A stretch of 64,000 nucleotides of DNA from an uncultured Verrucomicrobia subdivision 3 bacterium. Lineage in GTDB: Bacteria > Verrucomicrobiota > Verrucomicrobiia > Limisphaerales > UBA11358. The stretch is taken from contig CAILMI010000049.1 of assembly GCA_903835255.1 (NCBI GenBank), positions 1 through 64,000 of the forward strand, read 5' to 3'. The first letter of the stretch is position 1; each line of letters opens with the position of its first letter. The notes under the pieces are model-generated. The model worked only from the letters and a program-made list of their open reading frames with translations. It did not search any database and was not told the DNA's origin. A program made the position numbers and the translations under genes. Of the stretch, positions 2,655 through 16,789 are shown in pieces.

Positions 2655-5567
2655 TTAGCGGCTCAGCGGGCTGGGAGGATTGCCCGGCGGGTGCGGATCT
2701 TGCAACAGGAGGTGGGTCCGGGCCCGTTTCATTTTTTTATCCAGCAGCGTGTGCAGCGTTTCGGCCAGCTTGGTTATTTCGACCGGTTTTTCCAATAGTT
2801 CGCGGATTCCGGCTTTTCGCAAATCTTCATCCGTGAGCGCCCCTTTGAGTCCGGTGCTCAGGAGGATCGGCAGCTGGGGGCGTAGCCCGTGGATCTCGGC
2901 CGCCACTTCCAGCCCGTTCATTTCCGGCATGATTCTATCCGTGATGACGAGGTCGTAGTCGTCGGGGTTTTTGCGTAAGAGGGCGAGGGCCTCGCTGGGC
3001 TTGTTGCAGGTGCTGACCTGATAATTGAGCATCTGCAAGAGCGTCTCCAGCATGGTGGTCACGATGGGTTCGTCATCAATGACGAGAATGCGCTCGCCCT
3101 GGCCCAGGGGTGCGTCTTTCTTTTCTGAATCGGACAGCGGGTGGGGCTCAACTTGGGTTTGTGCCGGGAAATAAAGTCGGAAGGTGGCGCCTTCGCCCGT
3201 CCGGCTCTCGACCGTGATGAGGCCGTCGTGGGATTGGAGGATGCCGTGGACCACGGCCAGGCCCAGGCCGGTTCCCTTGCCGGCGGGCTTGGTGGTAAAA
3301 AACGGTTCAAAGATTCGATCCAGGATTTCGGCATTCATGCCCTGGCCCGTATCGCCAACGGTGAGCTGCGCGTAGGAAATGGGTCGGAATCGGGGATGCA
3401 GCGCCAGAAAGGCCGCGTCGGGGGTGAAGGCTTCCAGTTTCACGGTCAGGCAGCCCTGGTGGCCTTCCATGGCGTGCAGCGCATTGGTGGCCAAGTTCAT
3501 GGTCACCTGATAGATTTGGGTGGGATCGGCCAGGACTGTGGGCGCGTCGGCCGACAGGTTCAAGTCAATCCGGATATTGGAGGGCAGCGTGGCGCGCAGG
3601 AATTTTGTCGCTTCCCGGATGACGGGAGTCAGCCGGATAATCTGTCGTTTTTGTTCGTGCTGATGGCTGAAGGTCAAAATCTGTTGCACTAAATCTTTGG
3701 CCCGGTTCGCCGCCGCCAGGATGGCGAGCACTTTTTGATGCACTGAATGCTGCCGGAGCGTCTCGTGCTGGAGCATGGAGCCGTACCCAAAAATGACCGT
3801 GAGGATGTTGTTGAAATCATGGGCGATGCCGCCGGCCAGCTTGCCGATCGCCTCCATTTTTTGGGCCTGGCGGAACTGGGCCTCGAGTTGAAGTTCGCGC
3901 GTCACGTCGTGTTTGACGGCCACATAGTGCATGATTGTGCCCTGGTCGTTCCGGATGGGGGAGATGGTGGCGTCCTCTTCATACAGGGTCCCGTCCTTGC
4001 GCCGGTTGATGAAGTGGCCCCGCCACAGTTCCCCCCGCCGGAGGCATTCCCACATGGCCTGGTAAAAAAGCGCGTCCTGCTTGCCGCTTTTCAGGAGGCG
4101 CGGATTCTGGCCCAGGACCTCCGCCGAGTGATAGCCGGTGATTTTTTCAAACGCCGGATTCACATAGCGAATCGCAGCGTCGGTGTCGGTGATCACCACC
4201 ATTTCCGCCGACTGCTCAATGGCCGAGGCGAGCCGGGCGTGGGATTCCATGGTCAGTTGTCCTTCAAACTGCTCGTCCAGTCTGTCTAGCCCGAATGAGA
4301 TGGCATTACTGATCTGCTGGAGCAGGTGCTTTTCCTCTTCGGAGAAAAAGCCTGGCTTGTCCGCAAATAAAATGAGCGCGCCGGTGATGGCTCCATTGCG
4401 GCGGAACGGCACGGAGGCCGACGAGAGGTAGCCGCGCTCCAGGGCGGGGGCGCTCCAGGATTCTGTGGCGGGGGTGCTTCGCGTGTCGTTATTGATGAGG
4501 ATCTCGCCTTGCAGGAGGGGTGGGCTATGAATCCCATGGGGCTGATCCAGGCTGCTTAGAAAGCCGGCCTGTTTGAGATAGCCCGCTTCGTAGCCGTTGC
4601 AGCAAAAGGGGATGAGCCGCGCGGTTTTTATATCCACCAGCCCCACCCAGGCCATTCGGAATAAGCCGAATTCCACCACAGCGCTGCAGACATCCCGGAA
4701 CAGGTCCTCGGATTTTTTAGCGCGCGCCACCGACAGGCTGATCTGGCTGAGGGTGACATACAAATGATTGGCCTGCCGCAGGGATATCTCCATCCGTTTG
4801 CGCTCGGTGATGTCGTGGAGCACCATTAAAAAAAGCGGGCGGTCATAGAGTTTGATGCGCGACACCGAGGAGTGCACCGTTATCGGTTCGCCCGTGCGCC
4901 GGACTAATTCCATTTCGCTGCCATTTGGATTGCTGCCAGCGGCGATGGATGCCAGAAAATGGATGCTCGTCTCCCCTCCCATCAGCGGTGCGAAAATCTC
5001 TGCCTGATTAGACCCCAGTATTTTCGTCCGGGGCAGGTCTAAGAGAATTTCCGCCCGGGTGTTGGTGTCAAGAATTCGACCGGTGATCTCATCAACCAAG
5101 AATACCGCGTCGCTCAGGGCTTCAAAGAGGTGCCGGTATTTGTGTTCTGACTCGCGCATGGTGGCTTCGGCCAGCCTGCTTTCGCGCCGGACTCGCGCCG
5201 CCTGCAGTTCCCGCTCCAGCGCGGGGACCAGCCGTTTCAGGTTGGTCTTCATGACGTAATCATGAGCGCCGGACTTGACGGCTTCGACCGCGGTGTCTTC
5301 CCCGATGGTGCCGGACACATAGAGGAATGGCATGTCCACATCCAGATCTCGCACGATAGGAAGCGCCCGTTTGCCGCTGAATTGGGGCAGGGTGTAGTCG
5401 CACAAGACGGCGTCCCAGTTCTCCTGGGTCAGGGCCTGGCGGAGGGCTTCTTCCGTTTCCACCCGGTGGCTGGTCACCTCATAATGGTCCCGCTCCAGCA
5501 CGCGCAGGATGAGCGCGGCGTCCGCCTCGGAATCTTCCACCATCAGGATGCGAAGTTTATGATTCAT
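2655..5567 (-). CDS. Hybrid sensor histidine kinase with receivers at both ends
   Basis: A 970-aa cytoplasmic hybrid kinase with no membrane segment. Domain order: receiver (1-120, acidic pair E11-D12, phospho-acceptor D57 in LCDYTLP), PAS (about 145-265), GAF-like (about 275-425), PAS (about 435-560), dimerisation domain with H-box [11 protein letters not shown], ATPase domain ([31 protein letters not shown]) and a C-terminal receiver (VIDDEP ... [12 protein letters not shown], then LEKP). The start codon overlaps the stop of the response regulator by ATGA, so the two are co-translated. The N-terminal receiver suggests input from the upstream kinase, and the C-terminal one an internal relay. 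Signal and output are unknown. Confidence 0.92.
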
Positions 5568-5995
5568 GAAATGGATGGGGAGGAGGGTTCCGGGGGCGGT
5601 TCATTTAATAAGAGCCAGTACATTCCGAGCTGCCTGACCACCTCCGTGAATTGCTCGAAATCAACCGGCTTGCAGATGAAGCTGTTGGCTCCCAGATGAT
5701 AGACCTCATTGATGTCCCGCTCCTCCCGGGAGGAGGTCATGATGACCACCGGCAGTAATTTGAGCCGGGGATCGGTGCGGATCCGCCGCAGCACCTCAAT
5801 GCCCCCCATCCGGGGGAGCTGGAGGTCCAATAATACCAGGGCCGGAAGCAGGGTGCAGCGGTTCAGATATTCCATGCCTTCCACGCCATCGGTCTTGACG
5901 ACAATCTCGTTGAGTATTTTGTTCTTTTCGAATGCCCGGAGCGTCAATTTCACGTCGTCCGGGTTGTCTTCAATCAGCAGGATGTTTTTTTTCAT
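5564..5995 (-). CDS. Single-domain response regulator, Rcp1-like
   Basis: A 143-aa stand-alone receiver with no output domain. Acidic residues E9-D10, phospho-acceptor D57 in LLDLQLPRMGG, switch Thr/Ser in IMTSSREERD and Lys in FICKPVDF are all present. The 'D-N-P-D-D' opening and the long beta4 loop are typical of regulators that pair with phytochrome-like kinases (Rcp1 class). It overlaps both neighbours by ATGA: the kinase stops inside its start codon, and the hybrid kinase starts inside its stop codon. The likely role is a phosphate shuttle from the upstream kinase to the hybrid kinase; that is inference from order. Confidence 0.93.
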   Translation of the reverse strand: MKKNILLIEDNPDDVKLTLRAFEKNKILNEIVVKTDGVEGMEYLNRCTLLPALVLLDLQLPRMGGIEVLRRIRTDPRLKLLPVVIMTSSREERDINEVYHLGANSFICKPVDFEQFTEVVRQLGMYWLLLNEPPPEPSSPSIS

Positions 5996-7791
5996 GATGC
6001 GGGTTTGTTGTTTGTTTCCGGCAGGGTGAAATAGAATGTCGCTCCCAGGTTGACTTTGCCTTCGGCCCAGATGATTCCGCCGTGCCGTCGGAGGATGCGC
6101 TGAACACTGGCAAGGCCGATGCCCGTGCCGGGAAAATCCTCCATGGAATGCAGGCGCTGGAAAGCTCCAAACAGTTTATCGACATAGGCCATGTCAAATC
6201 CCGCGCCGTTATCGCGCACAAAAAAGGCGGAGACGCCGTTGGCAATTGTTTGGCCGAACTCAATCCGGGGGGCTTTTTGCCTGGCTGTAAATTTCCATGC
6301 ATTTTCCAGCAGGTTTTCGAACACCACGCGTATCAGGATGGGGTCGGCGGTTCCCATGATTTCGGGCTGGATGACAAACTCCACTTTCCGACCCGGTTCC
6401 TGCTGTTGCAATTCATCCGCCAGTGTGCGGGCCATGGCGCTGAAGTTCATCGGGATTTGGTACAGTTCCTTCCGGCTGATTTTTGATAATTCTAAAAGGT
6501 CGCTGATCAGTTGCCCCATCCGCTGGCTGGCGGCGCACACCCGCTGAAGACTGTCTTTGCCGGCGGCATCCAGCTTGTCCTGGTAATCCTCCAATAAAAC
6601 CCGGCTGAAGCCGTCGATGCTGCGGAGGGGCGCGCGCAGGTCGTGCGAGACCGAATAGCTGAAGGTTTCCAATTCTTGATTGGCTGCAGCCAGGTCCGCT
6701 GTGCGTTCTTTAACGCGCTGCTCCAGCTCGTTATTCAGTTTTTTAATGGCGGCTTCGTCGTGTTTGCGCTGGCGGATATCCCGCGCCAGCCAAAAATAGT
6801 CTTTCTCTCCCTTATATTCATAGCAGGTCATCTTGATTTCCACCGGGACGAGTGTTTTGTTTTTGCAGCGGAGTTGTTGCTCTTGAAGCACTGGATGCCC
6901 GGGCTCAATGTGTCGCCATACTTCACGCGAGGGGTTTAAATCCGAATCCGGTTCCAGTTCCGCCACGTTCATTGTCAGCAGTTCCTGCGGGGAATAGCCG
7001 AGGAGGTCGCAGGCCGCCTTGTTTGAATCCATAATACTTCCCGAGGCCTTAAATAGAATCATGCTGTCGCTGGATTCTTTAATGTAGGTTCGGAAGCGCA
7101 ACTCGCTCTCCATCAACGCAGTTTCCGCCATGGCTTTTTCGGTGATATCCAGATTGGTGCCTAAGACCCATTGGGTTCCCATGACTGGGTCGATATAGAG
7201 AGCTTCCATGGCCTTCAGGAGCAGGCATTTTCCGTCGCTGGCTCTGCGAATGTGAAATTCCCTGTTTCCTCCTCCCTGGCCTTGAACCAATAACTGCAAC
7301 TCCCGCTCCTGCTCTGCGAGCTCTTCGGGGAGAACGCACTTTTTCCATATGGAATAATCCACCAGGCCATCGAAGGTCGGAGGGATGCCGTAGATATCGA
7401 ACATGCGTTTATCCCAGTGAATGGAGTTGTTCGTAGTGTTCCATTCCCAAATCCCCATGCCGGCCGTTTTCGTGGCCAAGTTCATTAATTGCAAACTGCT
7501 GGCCGGGAGAATTCGCGCCATCAGGAGGCTTTGTTTCAGATCTTGTTTCGGCTTTCCGTCATCGTCGGAATTTTGGTTTTTAAGGGCTTTTTCAAGCTGA
7601 CAGATGTGGGTCCGGAGCAGGGCGCTTTCTTGCAGCAGGGTGATGTAGGTTTCTTCCGAAAAGTTCAGCAGGGAGGTCGGTATTAATTCCGGGTCGGCGC
7701 TCTCCTTTTCCGCGGCGCCCGTCGCAGGTTCACTCGGGTTGAGTGGTTCCTGATTTATAATAATCGATGGGTGGGCTGTGACTTGCTTCAT
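5992..7791 (-). CDS. PAS-containing sensor histidine kinase (phytochrome-type transmitter)
   Basis: About 599 aa from the ATG at 7791, chosen because a good ribosome site (gagaagga) lies 5 bases upstream; the 7812 start is a TTG. Two PAS domains follow a variable head (roughly 90-230 and 235-360), then a coiled linker (LNNELEQRVKERTADL). The H-box is FSYSVSHDLRAPLRSI, followed by ATPase motifs FENLLENAWKF, RDNGAGFD and GTGIGLASVQRI. No membrane helices, so it is cytoplasmic. The transmitter type matches kinases that phosphorylate small Rcp1-like receivers, which fits the overlapping downstream gene. The first PAS has W-E-W-N and a 'HWDKRMFDIYG' signature common in PAS_3-like folds. The ligand is unknown. 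Confidence 0.92.
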   Translation of the reverse strand: MKQVTAHPSIIINQEPLNPSEPATGAAEKESADPELIPTSLLNFSEETYITLLQESALLRTHICQLEKALKNQNSDDDGKPKQDLKQSLLMARILPASSLQLMNLATKTAGMGIWEWNTTNNSIHWDKRMFDIYGIPPTFDGLVDYSIWKKCVLPEELAEQERELQLLVQGQGGGNREFHIRRASDGKCLLLKAMEALYIDPVMGTQWVLGTNLDITEKAMAETALMESELRFRTYIKESSDSMILFKASGSIMDSNKAACDLLGYSPQELLTMNVAELEPDSDLNPSREVWRHIEPGHPVLQEQQLRCKNKTLVPVEIKMTCYEYKGEKDYFWLARDIRQRKHDEAAIKKLNNELEQRVKERTADLAAANQELETFSYSVSHDLRAPLRSIDGFSRVLLEDYQDKLDAAGKDSLQRVCAASQRMGQLISDLLELSKISRKELYQIPMNFSAMARTLADELQQQEPGRKVEFVIQPEIMGTADPILIRVVFENLLENAWKFTARQKAPRIEFGQTIANGVSAFFVRDNGAGFDMAYVDKLFGAFQRLHSMEDFPGTGIGLASVQRILRRHGGIIWAEGKVNLGATFYFTLPETNNKPAS

Positions 7792-8287
7792 AAATCCTTC
7801 TCCGTCCGCCAAGATAGCACGGGAAATCCGGTCTGCTTGGATTAATTAGGGGAGGGGAGGGCACGGCTCAAAAGCCGAGCGAACGCGCGACCGGTGGGGC
7901 TATTTCAGCCAGGGACTAGGACCCCCTGGGAGGAGGCGAGCACGGTGCGCAGGACATCGGCCGCGCGCCTGTGAACCCGGGTCCTACATCGGATTTGGCG
8001 AGGGGAAAGAAGTGCCGATCTGGCGTCTGGAAAAGGAGGATTCAACCCGAACGCCGAAAGAGGGGTTTGTGCCAGGGTGGTAGGGACCGCCGCGCTGCGG
8101 CGTCCCCGTCGCCGAGCGCAGCGTCAGGGGACGGAAAGCAATCAGGCGAGGCGGGGTGTCTGACTCCGTTTGTTCCGCCCTGCCGGGCGGAGGCATCGCA
8201 GCGCGATGCCCCTACCTGGCCCCTGCCTGCTTTGGAGTCCGGTTTCAGGGTTGGCAGTCGTGCCGGTAAACGCATAGCATCCATCTG
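7792..8287. other. Intergenic region with one family B repeat
   Basis: About 500 bases. Apart from the repeat at 8079-8216 I see no gene. The text upstream of the repeat (cccgaacgccgaaag) resembles the spacer between the two left-hand family B copies, so flanking sequence travelled with the repeat. Confidence 0.6.
8079..8216 (+). repeat. Family B dispersed repeat, diverged copy 3
   Basis: Has the same tips (ggtaggg/ccctacc), the same internal hairpins and about the same length (138 bp) as the copies at 462 and 757, but differs in the middle (gcaatcaggcgaggcgggg). Lies 70 bases before the metallopeptidase gene. Confidence 0.8.
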
Positions 8288-9007
8288 GTGTTCGACCGAT
8301 TTTTCAAACCCAAGCCAGAGCCGAAATTGGATTCGCTTCAAATCGGATCAAGGTCCGTTCCATTGGTGTTCGTCCACAATCCCAAGGCGCGCCGCTATCT
8401 TTTGCGATTGAGGTCTGACGGGGTAGCCAGGGTGACCGTTCCGAGACGAGGCTCCATTGCATCTGCCAAAGAATTCGTGGGCCATAATATGGGGTGGCTG
8501 GAGCGGCAGATTCAGAGGCTGGAAGCGCAGCCGAAAACTGCGAAGGAATGGCGGCCGGGAACCGAGATTTATTTAAAGGGCGAACGGGTCCGGATTGAGG
8601 TGGAGACGGCAGGACAAATCCGTTTAGGGAAGGTGTTGTTAAACCTGCGCGATGGGAGTGTGGATTTGAGGCCGGCGATCCAAAAGCATCTCCGAAAACT
8701 GGCTGCCCAAGAGCTTCCGGCTCGCGTCCTGGAATTGGCTTCGCGTCACGGCATTGAAATCTCGCGCGTCTCCGTCCGGAATCAAAAATCGCGCTGGGGT
8801 TCCTGTTCGAGGAGCGGCGGGATTTCACTGAACTGGCGATTGATTCAGACGCCAGATTTTGTTCGGGACTACATTTGCCTACATGAGCTGGCGCACCGTC
8901 GGCAAATGAACCACTCGGACCAATTTTGGCTGGAGGTGGAGCGTTTGTGCCCGGATTATTTGGCGGCCGAACGGTGGATTCAAGAGCATTCAAATGTGTT
9001 GCGGTAA
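8288..9007 (+). CDS. YgjP/SprT-like zinc metallopeptidase (DUF45, M48-type)
   Basis: A 239-aa protein starting with GTG at 8288. The zinc site is intact: HELAH with the third ligand in MNHSDQFW about 10 residues later. Other family marks are NQKSRWGSCS, then ISLNWRLIQTP and the late CPDYLAAERWIQ. The N-terminal beta-rich half (RRYLLRLRSDGVARVTVPRRG) is also typical of YgjP-like proteins. The family's physiological substrate is poorly known; members are often linked to restriction or stress loci. It is cytoplasmic, with no signal peptide. The next gene starts 53 bases downstream in the same direction. Confidence 0.9.
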   Translation: MFDRFFKPKPEPKLDSLQIGSRSVPLVFVHNPKARRYLLRLRSDGVARVTVPRRGSIASAKEFVGHNMGWLERQIQRLEAQPKTAKEWRPGTEIYLKGERVRIEVETAGQIRLGKVLLNLRDGSVDLRPAIQKHLRKLAAQELPARVLELASRHGIEISRVSVRNQKSRWGSCSRSGGISLNWRLIQTPDFVRDYICLHELAHRRQMNHSDQFWLEVERLCPDYLAAERWIQEHSNVLR

Positions 9008-9060
9008 ACCCGCATTTTGAAACCTTGCCGCACCCTTGAGCTGGACCCATATTTAATCCC

Positions 9061-9471
9061 GTGCGATTTAGCGAATTTTTCAACGCCGGCAGTGGTTGGG
9101 GGGATGCGGTAAAAATTGTCTTTTTCAGGATGCTGCCGAGAGGGGCGCAAATCGAAAAAGTCAGGTCAGAATTCAACAGCGGCTTTCTGAAGCAATATGG
9201 CACGATGACGCGGCTTGAAATTGATAAAGAAAGCAAGGCGATCCATGCCGACCTGAATTTGAAGGGGGAGAGCGGAATAATTCAGGTTTCGCTTAAAAAC
9301 TATCGGCTCATTCAAGAGGGGGGAAATCCCGTGTTTGAACTGGGCACCATTGAGGTGTCGCGCGAATGGCTGGATGCTCTGTTGAAAAACTGCGTGAAAA
9401 CAAGCGTCATCCCGGGGCGAATGGAAATTAAAAAACAGCTCCATCAAATCGTCCTGAAATCCCTCCTTTAA
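9061..9471 (+). CDS. Unknown 136-aa protein paired with RNase H-like gene
   Basis: Starts with GTG at 9061; I do not recognise the family. It is soluble and basic, with a beta-rich middle (MTRLEIDKESKAIHADLNLKG, shown only by its ends M-T-R and L-K-G) and a C-terminal helix rich in Lys and Leu (KKQLHQIVLKSLL). The stop is followed after a single base by the start of the RNase HI-like gene, so the two are almost certainly translated together. That pairing suggests a role in nucleic acid metabolism, but nothing in the sequence proves it. Confidence 0.6.
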   Translation: MRFSEFFNAGSGWGDAVKIVFFRMLPRGAQIEKVRSEFNSGFLKQYGTMTRLEIDKESKAIHADLNLKGESGIIQVSLKNYRLIQEGGNPVFELGTIEVSREWLDALLKNCVKTSVIPGRMEIKKQLHQIVLKSLL

Positions 9472-9472
9472 T

Positions 9473-9976
9473 ATGCGATTAGACGAGAGCCAATGCGAAC
9501 ACCAGACCCTGAGCCTGTTTGGTGAGGCGCCCCAAGCGGCACCGCGGGCGTTTGAAATAACTGGCACGGCGGAAATCTATTTTGATGGCGGTTGCCTCGG
9601 CAATCCTGGTCAGAAATATGGGTCCTTCCAAATCAAGCTCGATGGCAAAGAAATCATGAAGCGCAGCCGGGCGGATTTTGGTTTCGGAACCAATAACGAG
9701 GCAGAGTTTAATGCCCTGAAACTGGCGCTGGATGAGGCGCTGGGCTGGTTCCAAGAGAAATCCATTGAATTGAAGTCGCTGTCGCTCGTCATTGAAACGG
9801 ATTCCACCATCGTCCGGAATCGGCTGGTGGTGAAAAACGTGATCTTCAAAAAATATCCCAGCAGTCAACGGATGTTTGCGCTGGCCAGCGAATGCCTTGA
9901 GATCATGAACCAGTTCGGAAAATTCCAGGTGATTTGGAAAGGGCGCGCCAACAATGTCGAACGGTTCGGCCACTGA
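9473..9976 (+). CDS. RNase HI-like protein with altered C-terminal active site
   Basis: A 167-aa RNase H-fold protein. The first Asp (IYFDGGCLGNPG), the Glu (TNNEAEFNAL) and the second Asp (VIETDSTIV) of the catalytic quartet are visible. The last block, normally a His-containing loop then N-E-R-x-D, reads WKGRANNVERFGH and then stops. The fourth acid is therefore replaced by Gly, and the usual helix after it is missing. It could be a truncated or inactive copy, or a variant using the terminal His. A tandem repeat array begins 34 bases after the stop, so truncation by repeat insertion is possible. Confidence 0.75.
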   Translation: MRLDESQCEHQTLSLFGEAPQAAPRAFEITGTAEIYFDGGCLGNPGQKYGSFQIKLDGKEIMKRSRADFGFGTNNEAEFNALKLALDEALGWFQEKSIELKSLSLVIETDSTIVRNRLVVKNVIFKKYPSSQRMFALASECLEIMNQFGKFQVIWKGRANNVERFGH

Positions 9977-10010
9977 CGACGGCCGTTCAACGGAACCTTG
10001 GCCCATCCGC

Positions 10011-10577
10011 GGGTAGGGCGGGCAGTCCTCTGCCCGCCGCGGTTGCCAACCCACGTCACCTTAGGCCCGGGACGGCGCGCACGGAGTGACGCGTCCTGCC
10101 TCAGAGCGATTCCGCGAGGGAGATGGTCGGTCCTTGGGTTTATCAATCCGGATCCAGGCATTCTTCATTCATAGGGATGTATCCGGTCTGCTCTTGGTAC
10201 TGAAGCCGGGGTAATAACAAAGCGATCCGCTTGCGCAAAAAAGTCCGCAGGTAGGGCGGGCAGACCTCTGCCCGCCGCGGTTGACAACCCACGTCACCAT
10301 AGGCCCGGGACGGCGCGCACGGAGTGACGCGCCCTACCTCAGAGCGATTCCGCGAGGGAGATGGTTGGTCCTTGGGTTGATCAATCCGGATCCAGGCATC
10401 CTTCATCCACCCGAATGTATCCGGTCTGCTCTTGCTACTGAAGCTGGGGTAATAACAAAGCGATCCGCTTGCGCAAAAAAGTCCGCGGGTAGGGCGGGCA
10501 GTCCTCTGCCCGCCGCGGCTGCCAACCCACGTCACCTTAGCCCCGGGGTGGCGCGCACGGAGTGACGCGCCCTACCT
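10011..10577 (-). repeat. Tandem 238-bp units, each ending in a family A repeat
   Basis: Two full units of 238 bp (10102-10339 and 10340-10577) follow a 91-bp partial unit. Each full unit has about 150 bases of unique text (cagagcgattccgcg ... cgcttgcgcaaaaaagtccgc) plus one reversed family A repeat at 10250-10339 or 10488-10577; the partial one is 10011-10101. Units differ by scattered substitutions, so the duplication is not brand new. No credible reading frame is contained. The stretch after it, up to the tRNA, holds only a doubtful 52-codon frame. Confidence 0.88.
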
Positions 10578-10795
10578 AACAGCGATAGAGCGGGCAGTAT
10601 AATGCGTTGGCTGAAGTATGTGATATGGCGGGCGTGTCCGGCAAAGCCGCCGCGGAAAACTCCCAAGCCAAGCGGATGATTGTCGGCGCGAAGCGCAGAC
10701 ATATCGACTGCCGGCTGCTATTTCTACGCGAGGATGGCAGCGCTGGTGCGGTGGGAGCGGGAGGAAGCAGTGGATCGAGTTGAAGTTTTACTGGG

Positions 10796-10885
10796 TGGCG
10801 GAAGGGGTGGGATTTGAACCCACGGTAGGGTTACCCCTACTCCTGATTTCGAGTCAGGTGCCTTTAACCACTCAGCCACCCTTCC
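10796..10885 (-). tRNA. tRNA-Ser (anticodon CGA)
   Basis: A 90-nt tRNA including an encoded CCA. Acceptor GGAAGGG pairs with CCCTTCC, discriminator G. The anticodon stem CCTGA/TCAGG encloses CTCGAAA, giving anticodon CGA for UCG codons. The long variable arm (GTAGGGGTAACCCTAC) is typical of tRNA-Ser, and the T arm is GTGGG TTCAAAT CCCAC. Confidence 0.95.
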
Positions 10886-10954
10886 CGCCGAGAACTTTTC
10901 CATTAAACCAACAAATCCCCCCGCGGTAAATCTTAATCCGGCGCCCATCCCGGT

Positions 10955-10983
10955 TTGACTATTCCCGTCCGATTCACTAATGT
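10955..10983 (+). promoter_or_regulatory. Candidate sigma-70 promoter of recA
   Basis: TTGACT at 10955-10960 and TAATGT at 10978-10983 with a 17-base spacer, 39 bases before the recA ATG. The -35 is good and the -10 only fair. I did not find a recognisable LexA box here. Confidence 0.45.
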
Positions 10984-11022
10984 CGTTTTCCGTTAAATCA
11001 GAAATCCATTCTTTAAAATTTT

Positions 11023-12096
<1,074 letters not shown>

Positions 12097-12138
12097 TTTA
12101 ATTTTTATCAACCAAGCTCAATAAGCTCAATTAGCTGT

Positions 12139-13734
12139 ATGGAAACCGATTTGGATCTGGAAAAGCTGTTTCTCCCCGCGTGGGCGCAGGACAAGCCCGC
12201 GGGCAACCGCTACGAGAAGTTCACGGGCAACGAAGGCATGAAGCCCGAGCGCCGCTTTAATGACAAGCCCGGCGCCCGGCCCGGCCCGCGCCGGGATGGC
12301 GCCGGCGCTGGCGGCGGCGGGGACCGTCGCGGGGGACCGTCGCGCGGGGGAGCCCGGTTTGGCGGCGGGGACCGCCCGGGCGGTGGTTTCCGGGATCGCC
12401 GCGATGACCGGCGGGAGCCCGTCCGGCGCGAGCCGCCGGCGCCGTTGCCGGAAGTGGGAGTCGCAATTCTGCCCGGGGAGCAGGGTGTGGAATCCCTCGC
12501 CCGCCAGATCCGGATGACGGGCCGCGCCTATCCGCTGTTTCAGATTGCGCAGCTGGTGCTGGACAAGCCGGAGCGATATTCCGTCCAGTTGACGGTGAAG
12601 AAAAAGGCGGAGGGGGCTCCGGCGCAGCCGCTGTTTGTCTGTGCGCTGGATGAGACGCCGTGGTTGAGCGAGGAAGAGGCCATTGCGCACGTGCTGAAGA
12701 CTCAGTTCGCCACCTTTTATCAGGTGGACCGGGTTGCCACTGAGCCGCCCAAGGGCGTCTACACCTTCGTGGCGCAATGCGCCTTGAGCGGGGTGGTTCT
12801 CGGCCCGCCCAACCATCACGATTATCAGAATCAGCTGCGCAAGCTGCACAGCGAGCGCTTTTCCCGGATGCCTTTCGACGCCTACAAGGCGGGCGTGAAG
12901 ATTGTCCGCGATGAGGCGGTCGTGAAGAAATGGATTGAGGAGCAGAGTTTCAAGACGGAGTACACCGTGCTCAACATGCCGGAACCGCTCAAGCTCGCCA
13001 CGCTGGAGGAGGTGGAGCAGCATTTCCGGACCACGCATCGGGAGACGATTATCAAGTCCGTGGACACCCTCGTGGTCAGCGGAGTGATGAGCCGGGCCCT
13101 GCGCAGCCGCGGCCTGCAGCAGCTCGTCCGCGCCGAATGGGAACAGCAGCGGCATTTCCCGCTGCAGCTGGCCAGCACCCTGAGCCAGCAGTTCGCCAAC
13201 CACGGACTCCAGTTTTTCAAGGTCAACAAGACCGTCACCCACGTCGCGGTGGCGCGCCCGCAATTCTTGGATCTCGAGGCCACGCCGGTTTCCGAGAACA
13301 TCAAGCGCATTCTGCTGTTCATTCAGGAGCATCCGAAATGCACGCGCCGGAAATTGATCGAGACGCTCGCCCCGGCGCCCGCCCGCCCGACGGTTCTGGA
13401 GGTCCAGCCTGCCGCCGCCCCGGCGTCCCCCGCCGAGGCCACGCCCGAACAGACCGCCCTCATCGCGGATTTGCACTGGCTGGCGCATCAGGGCCACATC
13501 ATCGAATTTGCCGATGGCAAGCTGGAGGCGGCCAAGAAGCCCCTGCCCAAACCCACGAAACCGGCGAAGCAGCCGGCGGCGACATCCCCTGTTGCCGGAG
13601 GGATCGAGGCGGTGGTTGGCGCGGTGATCACCGACAGCCCGGCGGCTGTGGAAGCCGCGCCTGCGGAAGCCGCAGCTGAAAATGCCGCAGTGGCGGCGCC
13701 TCTGCCGGCCGATCCTGCTGCCGCGTCCGTGTAG
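12139..13734 (+). CDS. Unknown 531-aa protein with RG-rich segment
   Basis: I do not recognise this family. Layout: a short head (DLEKLFLPAWAQDKPAG), a Gly/Arg-rich low-complexity tract (about 42-100) resembling RGG RNA-binding tails, then a well-structured middle (about 105-430) with VGVAILPGEQGVESLARQ, LDETPWLSEEEAIAHVL, PNHHDYQNQLRKLH and a long helical part. A final Ala/Pro/Glu-rich tail follows 430. No signal peptide or membrane segment. The middle ends in a segment (IKRILLFIQEHPKCTRRKLI) that looks like a winged-helix-type DNA-binding fold; this is inference. It lies 42 bases after recA. A nucleic-acid-binding role fits composition and position but is unproven. Confidence 0.8.
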   Translation: METDLDLEKLFLPAWAQDKPAGNRYEKFTGNEGMKPERRFNDKPGARPGPRRDGAGAGGGGDRRGGPSRGGARFGGGDRPGGGFRDRRDDRREPVRREPPAPLPEVGVAILPGEQGVESLARQIRMTGRAYPLFQIAQLVLDKPERYSVQLTVKKKAEGAPAQPLFVCALDETPWLSEEEAIAHVLKTQFATFYQVDRVATEPPKGVYTFVAQCALSGVVLGPPNHHDYQNQLRKLHSERFSRMPFDAYKAGVKIVRDEAVVKKWIEEQSFKTEYTVLNMPEPLKLATLEEVEQHFRTTHRETIIKSVDTLVVSGVMSRALRSRGLQQLVRAEWEQQRHFPLQLASTLSQQFANHGLQFFKVNKTVTHVAVARPQFLDLEATPVSENIKRILLFIQEHPKCTRRKLIETLAPAPARPTVLEVQPAAAPASPAEATPEQTALIADLHWLAHQGHIIEFADGKLEAAKKPLPKPTKPAKQPAATSPVAGGIEAVVGAVITDSPAAVEAAPAEAAAENAAVAAPLPADPAAASV

Positions 13735-13909: not shown

Positions 13910-14383
13910 ATGCTTCGTAAAATTCAGTCCAAAAAAATCCAGGGTCGCGGCGGCGTGTTTGCCATTGTCGCCTCCAATTATAATGCGCGTTATGTCGACG
14001 CCATGCTGCGGGCGGCGCGCCGGGAATTGACGCGCGCCGGGGCCCGGGTGCAAGTCGTGCGCGTGCCGGGCGCCTATGAGATTCCGGTGGTGGCGGCGCG
14101 TCTGGCGCGTCTGGCGTCGGAGGATTCGGGGCTTTCTGCGATCCTCTGCCTGGGGGTGATTTTGCGCGGGGCCACGACGCATGCGCAGCACATTGGCGAA
14201 GCGGTGAGCGCCGCGCTGGCGCAGATTCAGATTCTGCATGAGGTGCCGGTCATCCACGAGGTGTTGCTGCTGGAAAACGAGCAGCAGGCGCGGGAGCGCT
14301 GTCTCGACCGGAAGCACAATCGCGGCACGGAAGCGGCCCAGACCGCCCTGGAAATGGCGCGGGTGATGGCCGGGTTGAAATAG
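13910..14383 (+). CDS. ribH: 6,7-dimethyl-8-ribityllumazine synthase
   Basis: A 157-aa RibH. It condenses 5-amino-6-ribitylaminouracil with 3,4-dihydroxybutanone phosphate in the penultimate step of riboflavin synthesis, as an icosahedral or pentameric shell. Motifs: VASNYNARYV, VPGAYEIPV, the phosphate/base loop GVILRGATTHAQHI with its catalytic His, and NRGTEAAQTALEMARVM near the end. The usual 'GVLT' strand reads EVLLLENEQQA, a modest departure. No other riboflavin gene is nearby. About 170 bases separate it from the gene upstream, and I see no FMN riboswitch there. Confidence 0.95.
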   Translation: MLRKIQSKKIQGRGGVFAIVASNYNARYVDAMLRAARRELTRAGARVQVVRVPGAYEIPVVAARLARLASEDSGLSAILCLGVILRGATTHAQHIGEAVSAALAQIQILHEVPVIHEVLLLENEQQARERCLDRKHNRGTEAAQTALEMARVMAGLK

Positions 14384-14413
14384 CGCGTTGAAATAGCGCG
14401 CTTTTTGAGGCTG

Positions 14414-14451: not shown

Positions 14452-15735
14452 ATGTCCAAGCAGCGTCCAAGCAGCGGGGATTTGAGTGCCCAAAACCCTG
14501 AATCTCATGAGGTTCAGAATTTTTGGATCAAGCGCATTTTTAAAAACACGTACACGCGCGACGGGCAGCGGCTCAAGGTGGATAGCTGGTCGGTAAAAAT
14601 CCAGCATCACAGCCGTCGCCGGACTTTTTCGCTGGGTGCTTCGGATAAAGCCACCGCTGCCATAGCGGCCAAGGCGATCTATGACACCATTGTGGCCGAA
14701 GGCTGGGACGCGGCCCTGGTCCATGAGAAAAATCAGACAGGCTTTTCCAAAACGGACGCCTCTTATTGGAAAGAGCAGCTTCTTCTGCGTCGCTATCTTT
14801 TTCCCGGTTCGGGGGAGCCGGACAAATCCTTTACAGCGCGGATTGGGCACGCGGGGAACGGCTATTTTTTCCCGCTCGGCACCAGCGACGCGGAGGAGGC
14901 TGCCCGCCGGGCCTGCCATATTTATTGCGCCATCGTCAAACAAGGCTGGGAGGAGGCGTGCCAATTATTTCCGCGCGAGCTGATCGTGGCGTTTGAGTGG
15001 GCCGTCCATCCGGTCATCATGTGGACTTACACCACGGTGCACACTCTGGTGGGGCGCCTGGCGGATGTGGGGGCGCTGCCGCCGCGGGCGCCGGCGGAGG
15101 CGCAGCGCGTATTGATTGTCGAAACGGATGCCGGCCTGCGCCGCGCTCTGGTCTGGAGCATCAACCAGCAGCCGGGATACTGCGCCGTGCCGTGCGAAAC
15201 GCCGGAGTCGTTTGCGGCGATGGCCGCCCTGCATCACCCGAAGCTGGTGCTGACGAATCGGAGCCTGGCAGAGCGCATCGGCGTTCAATTTACCGGGGGA
15301 TTAATGCGGCTCGCCTCCGGAGCGCTGGCGCTGGCTTATTCCGTTTCCGTGGATGGCGATCACATGTTTGTCTCCACGCCGGGCGGCGCCGAGGGCTACC
15401 TGCTCAAGCGCGTTCCTCCCGCCCACCTCCTCGACCCGGTGATTCACTCCGGAAATCCGGCGGGCACCGATGCCGAGAGCCATCTGGCGCCGGTCCGGCT
15501 TTTTTTCAAGGAGCTGCTGCGGCCCCGGTCCGGCCCGCATGTCGCCGCGCTTTCCAAGCTCACCCCGCGCGAAAATGAGGTGCTGATGTTGCTCAGCAAG
15601 GGGGGGGTGGACAAGGAAATTGCCCAGGCCATGGGCATCAGCGTGTGGACCGTGCACGGGCATATTAAAAAGATCTTTGAACGTCTGGGGGTCCGGACCC
15701 GGACCGAGGCGGTGGTGCGGTATCTGGAAAAATAA
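14452..15735 (+). CDS. LuxR-family regulator with duplicated N-domain and pseudo-receiver
   Basis: A 427-aa protein. Residues about 20-85 and 100-175 are two related modules: each ends in a 'FSLG-S-DKATAA...IYD.IV.EGWDAA' or 'FPLGTSDAEEAA...IYCAIVKQGWEEA' pattern, resembling the arm-type domains of integrases. Residues about 215-330 fold like a receiver (VLIVETDAG ... LVLTNRSLAERIG ... GYLLKRVPP), but Asn replaces the phospho-acceptor Asp. The C-terminus is a LuxR helix-turn-helix (LTPRENEVLMLLSKGG ... IAQAMGISVWTVHGHIKKIF). It probably binds DNA and is not switched by phosphorylation. The signal and regulon are unknown. The pseudopilin gene lies 170 bases downstream. Confidence 0.85.
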   Translation: MSKQRPSSGDLSAQNPESHEVQNFWIKRIFKNTYTRDGQRLKVDSWSVKIQHHSRRRTFSLGASDKATAAIAAKAIYDTIVAEGWDAALVHEKNQTGFSKTDASYWKEQLLLRRYLFPGSGEPDKSFTARIGHAGNGYFFPLGTSDAEEAARRACHIYCAIVKQGWEEACQLFPRELIVAFEWAVHPVIMWTYTTVHTLVGRLADVGALPPRAPAEAQRVLIVETDAGLRRALVWSINQQPGYCAVPCETPESFAAMAALHHPKLVLTNRSLAERIGVQFTGGLMRLASGALALAYSVSVDGDHMFVSTPGGAEGYLLKRVPPAHLLDPVIHSGNPAGTDAESHLAPVRLFFKELLRPRSGPHVAALSKLTPRENEVLMLLSKGGVDKEIAQAMGISVWTVHGHIKKIFERLGVRTRTEAVVRYLEK

Positions 15736-15824: not shown

Positions 15825-15907
15825 TTGAGGGCCAATGGTTAAATTGGCTCGTCACTATTTGAATCGAGCCGGCATTCAGTCAATATCCATTGATTCCTAT
15901 TGATCAA

Positions 15908-16789
15908 ATGATAAGAAAACGAAACAGCCCAAGCGGTCAGACGGTAAAGCCCTCCGGATTTACACTCATTGAATTGTTGGTGGTCATTGCCATCATCGCC
16001 ATTCTCGCGGCGATGCTGCTTCCGGCGCTGTCCGCCGCGAAGTCAAAGGCGCAGGCCATCGGATGCCTGAATAATATTCGCCAGCTGGATATTGCCTTCA
16101 TCATGTATTCGGGGGATAACTCGGATCGCATCGTCAATAACCACACCACCGGAAATTCCTGCGGCCCCAATGCCTGGATCAAAGCCGGGGGTTCCGGGTT
16201 TAGCAGCTACACCGGCAATGCCCGGGTGGATCCGAATGATCTGGCCATTCAAAATGGGGTTCTTTATCCCTTTAATACGAGTTCCAAGATTTACCATTGC
16301 GCTTCCGATCAGACCCTGGTGAACAACAGCACAACGGTTCTCAAAAACCGCAGCTACTCCATGAGCACTGGCATGAACTGGGCCAATATTTCAGCCGGTG
16401 CTGTGGACGCGGATCCCGTCAGCGGCAGCTTTGTGAAATTATCCGCAATCGCAACGCCGGGTTCGGTGCTGGCGGCGGTCTTTGTCGAGGAAGCGGCCAA
16501 CAGCATTGACAATAACGCTCTCGGAATCTACAGCCCGCAATACATCAGCGGCAAAACGTTCTGGAACCTCCCTTCCAGCCGTCACAGCGGCGGTGCCAAT
16601 ATTGCCTTTGCCGACGGCCACACTGAATTTCACAAATGGAAAGGGCCCAATGTTCAAAAGGGAAATTTGATTGCTGATCCGGTGCCGAGCAGCTCTCTGC
16701 AGGGGCCCGGGTGGGGTGCTCCGGCGCCCGATGTCAACGGTTCGACCGATCCCGATTTGCTGTACCTTTCAACCACGGTTCCCCCTTGA
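15908..16789 (+). CDS. Secreted pseudopilin-like protein (prepilin head, H-x9-DG)
   Basis: About 293 aa from the ATG at 15908; an in-frame TTG lies 18 bases upstream. The head [20 protein letters not shown] is a class III prepilin signal cleaved before the Phe, followed by [20 protein letters not shown] as in the large Planctomycetes/Verrucomicrobia pseudopilin family. The body is Ser/Asn-rich and extracellular. The tail has the H-x9-DG motif ([13 protein letters not shown]). Such proteins are thought to pass through a type II/IV-pilus-like machine. The function is unknown. It is transcribed toward the glycan operon 78 bases downstream and may serve it, but that is inference. Confidence 0.88.

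Follow-up and report, generated by a model that had tools for sequence, protein, structure and literature searches.

The arm domains of tyrosine recombinases (lambda Int and the HPI, HAI7 and P4-like integrases) and the AP2 domains represent a common fold class, and the AP2-type factors of plants and parasites are thought to be derived from proteins of mobile elements. Response regulators of the NarL/FixJ type, including atypical orphans, carry a receiver followed by the GerE helix-turn-helix (HTH). The intS gene of KplE1 is reported to be negatively autoregulated, its promoter being overlapped by attL (PMC2951348). No description of a LuxR regulator with integrase arm domains was found in the accessible portion of the open-access literature.

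The regulator described here, encoded in a stretch of 64,000 nucleotides (hereafter: the window), resembles the recombinase arms in a predicted three-stranded sheet followed by a C-terminal helix, in its homology to Verrucomicrobial integrases, and in tandem 10–11 bp repeats at the 5' end of its own gene, but it has no recombinase domain, is fused to a receiver and an HTH, and possesses two copies of the arm, of which only one retains the basic turn. With the NarL/FixJ-type regulators it shares the receiver-like domain followed by the GerE HTH, while Asn in place of Asp, the eroded acidic pair and Lys, the two N-terminal arms and the tail set it apart. The arm-like fold is predicted to be common to the AP2/ERF and ApiAP2 factors of plants and apicomplexans, but the regulator is bacterial, joined to two-component parts and closest in sequence to local integrases. 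Like intS (PMC2951348), the regulator is an arm-domain protein with putative sites at the start of its own gene; unlike intS it is not a recombinase, and its autoregulation is a prediction.

The open reading frame at 14452–15735 (+ strand) starts with ATG and contains no internal stops, in a genome with an assembly size of 3.17 Mb whose close relatives bearing names are mostly metagenome-assembled genomes of Verrucomicrobia subdivision 3 / Limisphaerales. The features of the locus are as follows:

14452–15735, + strand: coding sequence of the regulator (427 aa; from the open reading frame and profiles), in the order arm module 1, arm module 2, tail, pseudo-receiver, LuxR HTH
14454–14475, + strand: tandem direct repeat across the start codon, two perfect 11-bp GTCCAAGCAGC units, proposed site of module 1
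14454–14464 and 14465–14475, + strand: the individual GTCCAAGCAGC units
14515–14718, + strand: arm module 1, integrase-type, residues 22–89 (integrase-arm profile)
14614–14622, + strand: basic turn Arg55-Arg56-Arg57 between strands of module 1 (module alignment)
14752–14958, + strand: arm module 2, diverged, residues 101–169 (integrase-arm profile)
14965–15069, + strand: conserved tail after module 2, residues 172–206, motif RE..W..P..TYTT..T (family alignment)
15109–15435, + strand: receiver-like domain, residues 220–328 (Pfam Response_reg, below the cut-off)
15256–15258, + strand: Asn269 codon AAT at the phospho-acceptor position (receiver alignment)
15556–15717, + strand: LuxR/GerE helix-turn-helix, residues 369–422 (Pfam PF00196)
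15890–16789, + strand: prepilin-type exported-protein gene (N_methyl, DUF1559), downstream neighbour and candidate target

The gene upstream of the regulator (13910–14383) presumably codes for the riboflavin synthase beta chain; two adjoining copies of a direct repeat, TTGAAATAGCGCG, span its stop codon (14375–14400). Promoter and terminator predictions around the regulator gene, a hairpin at 14498–14517 among them, differed in number by no more than about one standard deviation from those in shuffled DNA and were rejected.

The earlier note had described the N-terminal part of the protein as two integrase-arm-like modules, and several lines of analysis agree with this description. A profile of 14 N-termini of Verrucomicrobial tyrosine recombinases, with no regulators included (the short or cut integrases L036, L046 (115 aa) and L047 (183 aa) are among them), matched residues 22–89 (E 7.9e-22) and 101–169 (E 1.1e-13) of the regulator at a database size of 10,000. 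Of the two matches, that of module 2 carries more independent weight, because the 14 integrases had been retrieved with a two-module query, mostly through module 1. Profile-profile comparison, proposed in the earlier note as a check of both modules, related each of them to the integrase arms (module 1: E 2.7e-28, 43% identity; module 2: E 6.6e-21) and to each other (98.6%, E 1.2e-15). A query with residues 18–199 found matches in 24 of the 59 genomes searched (including the window's genome in the 59), and several of the module-1-only matches represent the N-terminus of open reading frames of about 450–510 aa. All eight of the arm-bearing frames from the order that were scanned matched Phage_integrase (PF00589) at E < 0.01, six of them above the curated cut-off. 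In the phylum, a query with module 2 and the tail matched at least 18 of 387 genomes; among the matches listed, the 17 besides the window's genome belong to the same class, outside the order, and PF00589 was found in all 16 arm-bearing frames scanned from there, in 15 above the cut-off. The order-wide search matched at least 125 of 320 genomes, regulators and integrases pooled, and the regulator family was found inside this one order only, among the matches listed. Scoring was limited to 12 candidates per genome in the phylum search and to 15 in the order search, so that the counts are lower bounds and the absences soft.

PF00589 was absent from the regulator protein at E up to 10, as were the curated Pfam arm families, which were also absent from eight integrases at E up to 1, save for DUF6538 (E 0.044) in L039; these Pfam arm negatives are limited, since the HMMER filters discard most weak matches. 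An AP2 match at residues 46–75 of the regulator was weak (E 0.009, 16.7 bits vs the cut-off of 33.3). Two scans of viral contigs, one with the regulator and one with an integrase, came out negative, although such scans detect close relatives only; PHROGs gave a match to module 1 at chance level only, and searches of PDB sequences with the module profiles identified no credible relative (best E-values of 0.38 and 0.018, for unrelated proteins). At the level of sequence, the profile and profile-profile comparisons support the assignment of the regulator's front end to a pair of arm-type domains homologous to the arms of tyrosine recombinases.

The module fold predicted from a 12-sequence module alignment (mean pLDDT 82.1) comprises a helix, three strands and two further helices. 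Among 1000 re-aligned PDB chains, the closest one was the arm domain of the HAI7 integrase (Z 4.9, 2.9 A over 63 residues), and solved integrase arm domains occupied ranks 1, 3, 4, 7 and 20 with weak scores (Z from 4.9 to 2.6); the upper rows contained the lambda Int, P4-like and HPI arms, the AP2 domains of SIP2 and TEM1, and also unrelated proteins. Foldseek searches with the module model returned no matches below E 0.001. The structural scores (Z < 5) are too low to prove the fold alone, but the model is consistent with the sequence result. A sensor fold devoid of a DNA-binding surface, which the earlier note had named as the outcome that would speak against it, was not what emerged: the structural list is headed by an integrase arm domain, with unrelated proteins also ranking high. 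The model of the full-length regulator was poor (mean pLDDT 56.6, pTM 0.41), and the arrangement of the domains was therefore left out of the argument.

The two modules differ markedly in charge, the mean net charge being +8.7 for module 1, +5.0 for the integrase arms and +1.8 for module 2. Basic residues occupy the positions of Arg55, Arg56 and Arg57 in 50, 100 and 76% of the module-1 copies and in 75, 79 and 29% of the integrase arms, vs 6% each of the module-2 copies; position 56 is Arg in module 1 of all 54 two-module regulators, and module 2 of the window's protein exhibits Asn-Gly-Tyr in place of the basic turn. In an unrooted module tree (170 sequences thinned to 138, no outgroup), all 40 module-1 rows and all 27 integrase rows group together, apart from module 2, on a branch with SH-aLRT of 97% that excludes all single modules save that of L174; trees of such 70-residue modules are weakly resolved.

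For the analysis of the family, 88 regulator loci were used, all sharing the fixed order of tail and receiver, 54 of them with two modules and 34 with one. They comprise the window, L009–L015 and 80 stretches picked from the order-search matches reaching the tail, and are thus a subset. L136 is a duplicate of L013, leaving 87 different proteins, and L142, listed under the one-module loci, is a gene with both modules that is divided between two frames; L096, L106, L132 and L157 are cut at contig ends, the HTH of L123 is incomplete, and L023 is a cut regulator. L026 and L041, each with a stop within the match, were left out of the alignments, and L062 was left out as a duplicate, by score and frame, of L061 and L063.

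The C-terminal HTH was confidently identified (PF00196, residues 369–422, E 9e-14, 51.3 bits vs the cut-off of 23.5). The Response_reg match (PF00072, residues 220–328, E 9e-6) scored 26.3 bits, below the cut-off of 30.2, with position and span as expected. Alignment of the receiver to two ordinary regulators from the window's genome placed Asn269 at the phospho-acceptor position, confirming the observation of the earlier note; Asn occupies this position in 76 of the 88 family loci and Asp in three, while the second acidic residue is kept in only two loci and Lys in 23. The residues, with Asn269 and the eroded acidic pair and Lys, thus support the view, also taken in the earlier note, that the receiver is blind to phosphate. 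The tail motif RE..W..P..TYTT..T is present in the regulators and absent from the integrases examined, and no Pfam family matched the tail (14965–15069), which is the most family-specific part of these proteins. The equivalog of the PEP-CTERM regulator EpsA (TIGR03020) matched the HTH only, with 47.3 bits vs a cut-off of 170.

New in this locus is the tandem repeat at the start codon. Searched as GTCCAAGC-(2 or 3 nt)-GTCCAAGC in a search interval anchored on the first module, it was found with up to 2 mismatches of 16 in 48 of the 54 two-module regulators, in one of the 34 one-module regulators and in one of 2944 control windows, and with 3 mismatches in 53/54, 3/34 and 7/2944, respectively. 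When the interval was set from the start of the open frame, the counts were 43/54 and 1/34. The sole one-module regulator with the repeat at up to 2 mismatches is L174, which carries a module-1-type arm, and L141 is a two-module regulator in which the repeat cannot be recognised. The spacing is 11 bp in 38 of 53 repeats and 10 bp in the other 15. When perfect tandem 8-mers were sought without a preset motif, periods of 10 and 11 appeared in 16/54 two-module loci each, vs 1/34 and 2/34 one-module loci. Among 313 genomes of the order, 50 exact repeats were found in 40 genomes (vs 3 for the reversed pattern), and of 30 that were fetched, 24 correspond to regulator starts. The presence of the repeat tracks module 1 and not module 2, the module-2-only regulators being without it. 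On the tree, four changes of module-1 presence suffice, which makes this association phylogenetically shallow; of three supported independent pairs, a mean of 1.9 showed a parallel change of the repeat and none an opposite one, the pairs being too few for significance. The repeat lies 26–71 bp before module 1, close enough for a single deletion to take both.

The integrases that bear the arm exhibit the same repeat design. Between -250 and +150 of the gene start, a perfect tandem repeat of period 11 is present at 21 of 29 arm-bearing integrases, several of them close relatives, vs 7/976 control windows and 3/369 control gene starts; the remaining 8/29 are without it. The commonest integrase unit is AAGTGGCCAAG, which lies upstream of the gene start in L036 and L043. 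The pattern GTGGCCAAGAAGTGGCCAAG, with one mismatch allowed, has 18 matches in the 313 genomes and none when reversed, nine at arm-bearing frames and the other nine (8 clusters) 26–110 bp from a tRNA gene. One contig (G493:C195, locus L263) contains a complete element of 8.1 kb (4003–12187) with an arm-bearing integrase at one end and with 58-bp direct att copies at 4003 and 12130, the second of which overlaps a tRNA-Lys gene; the tandem repeats sit a short way inward of the two ends (4190 at one, 12026 and 12069 at the other), an arrangement characteristic of arm-type sites. The similarity between regulator and integrase units is modest: in the best rotation, 8 of 11 positions agree with the commonest integrase unit (shuffle p 0.023) and 5–7 of 11 with most others. 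A tendency of similar arms to go with similar units was not significant among 19 arms (r 0.22, p 0.09). The two arm copies, together with the match in style between the start-codon repeat and the repeats at integrase attachment sites, suggest that the reading head of a mobile element has been reused for gene control.

We consider it likely that the protein is an orphan, phosphate-independent regulator of the NarL/LuxR type, whose module 1 reads the start-codon repeat for control of its own gene and of a neighbour, with module 2 in a structural role. Module 1 would most likely read the repeat GTCCAAGCAGCGTCCAAGC in the manner of an integrase arm, i.e. with one arm per 10–11 bp head-to-tail unit, and module 1 of two protomers could occupy the two units over the start codon, thereby limiting the regulator's own expression. 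Self-control is most likely because the GTCCAAGC site covers the start codon of the regulator itself, and its sign would be negative, by analogy with the integrases that have sites at their own gene starts. The HTH may be brought to nearby promoter DNA of the adjoining exported-protein gene (prepilin-like, PEP-CTERM or LamG/Ig), which is probably the target. Module 2, having lost the basic turn, is probably a dimerisation or structural adaptor, and the receiver may be a dimerisation or scaffold domain that operates without phosphorylation.

Alternatively, the arm modules could serve protein-protein contacts or ligand sensing, the HTH could do all of the DNA binding, and the repeat could be kept for translation or be the chance product of a peptide, MSKQRPS. 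In agreement with this, module 2 has lost its basic turn, the two modules are conserved to a similar degree (mean column identity of 59 and 60%), and the repeat lies within the coding sequence and encodes a peptide conserved in most loci. However, codons for the same residues are frozen synonymously: in 31 genes with the commonest register, Arg is encoded by CGT in 30/30 cases (background 12%), Pro by CCA in 30/30 (13%) and Lys by AAG in 31/31 (52%). As the synonymous sites are frozen, the DNA is conserved beyond the peptide alone, with the qualification that the rows are related and the p-values for these sites therefore non-independent. Moreover, the repeat is translated in all three reading frames across the family; in one sister lineage (f2) the presumed start codon is preceded by a second copy of the repeat; the mean charge of module 1 exceeds that of the integrase arms; and repeats of the same period occur at the gene starts and tRNA att sites of the arm integrases. 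We regard this alternative as unlikely.

The earlier note had proposed a different use of two DNA-binding arms, namely looping between two separate sites. In such an arrangement module 1 and module 2, or the arms and the HTH, would hold two sites in an intasome-like manner. For the window this proposal found no support: there is one repeat pair, the exact repeat occurs once in the 3.17-Mb genome (at 14454), the basic turn of module 2 is lost, and the repeat follows module 1, being absent from regulators with module 2 only. Looping in the window was rejected because the genome has no second exact site; with up to 3 mismatches the genome contains 32 matches, vs 24 for the reversed pattern. In the f2 lineage, where the alignment of 13 loci shows GTCCAAGCATGTCCAAGCA to be invariant with the presumed ATG between the units, looping could still apply, because here, and among the loci examined only here, 11 of 15 loci contain a second repeat pair at a distance of 78–79 bp; in six loci an inverted GCTTGGCCAAGC lies between the repeat pairs. 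One end of the integrase element of G493:C195 likewise bears two repeat pairs, separated by 43 bp. Overall, we find looping quite unlikely. The GCTTGGCCAAGC sequence, found upstream of the regulator in L114, L119, L144, L148, L149 and L153, consists of the CCAAGC half-unit that the tandem repeats also contain and may be a site for an HTH dimer.

An independent gain of a general AP2/arm-like fold by regulators and integrases, or its passage from regulators to integrases, would agree with a structural likeness that reaches the AP2 domains and with weakly resolved module trees whose root is unfixed without an outgroup, but it is highly unlikely in view of the 43% identity between module 1 and the integrase arms (E 2.7e-28) and of the finding that all 16 frames scanned outside the order are recombinases while, among the matches listed, regulators occur only inside it.

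We see roughly even chances that a host transcription-factor family took over the integrase arm and its 11-bp 5' repeats as one unit and turned the repeats into a start-codon operator, translated in any frame and synonymously frozen, in regulators that are often neighbours of exported-protein genes; one lineage perhaps bridges two such sites in the manner of an intasome. The step from recombinase arm to regulator is directly testable, because integrases with the same arm, their repeats and their att sites persist in the same order. Operators could also be sought by a testable rule: peptides conserved at the N-terminus (MSKQRPS in the regulators, KSGQEVAK in the integrases) may actually be DNA sites, and a site masked in this way is betrayed by the lack of variation among its synonymous codons. 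If this is confirmed, the regulators and integrases together would form a natural series of arm-unit pairs, which could give a recognition code for the arms.

The genomic neighborhood points to exported proteins as candidate targets. Of the 88 loci, 36 have a prepilin motif no more than 1 kb away from the regulator gene and the other 52 have none; of 37 such motifs, 30 lie upstream on the opposite strand and 7 downstream on the same strand; their density is 0.22/kb near the regulators vs 0.015/kb in 398 kb of the same genomes. Further neighbours include PEP-CTERM and LamG/Ig exported proteins. Six of the 30 exact repeats that were fetched lie away from regulator starts. In five of these (L218, L219, L222, L226 and L242) no link between the repeat and an exported-protein gene is evident, and only L224 (genome G550) exhibits an evident exported-protein gene as a possible target, with the repeat 145 bp before an open reading frame that has an export-signal-like start and whose product shares 60% identity, across 438 aa, with that of the gene divergently adjoining regulator L109. 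In this stretch of L224 (about 1501–1665) the regulator-type repeat stands alone and is directly followed by another tandem repeat of about 30–40 bp, and the region may be a target in trans. By reading of the neighbourhoods, 18 regulators (L101, L104, L108, L110–L112, L114, L117, L119, L144, L148–L151, L153, L162, L166 and L168) are followed by genes for Rieske-type oxygenases, FAD oxidoreductases or MttB-like proteins, which resemble those of methylamine or betaine demethylation.
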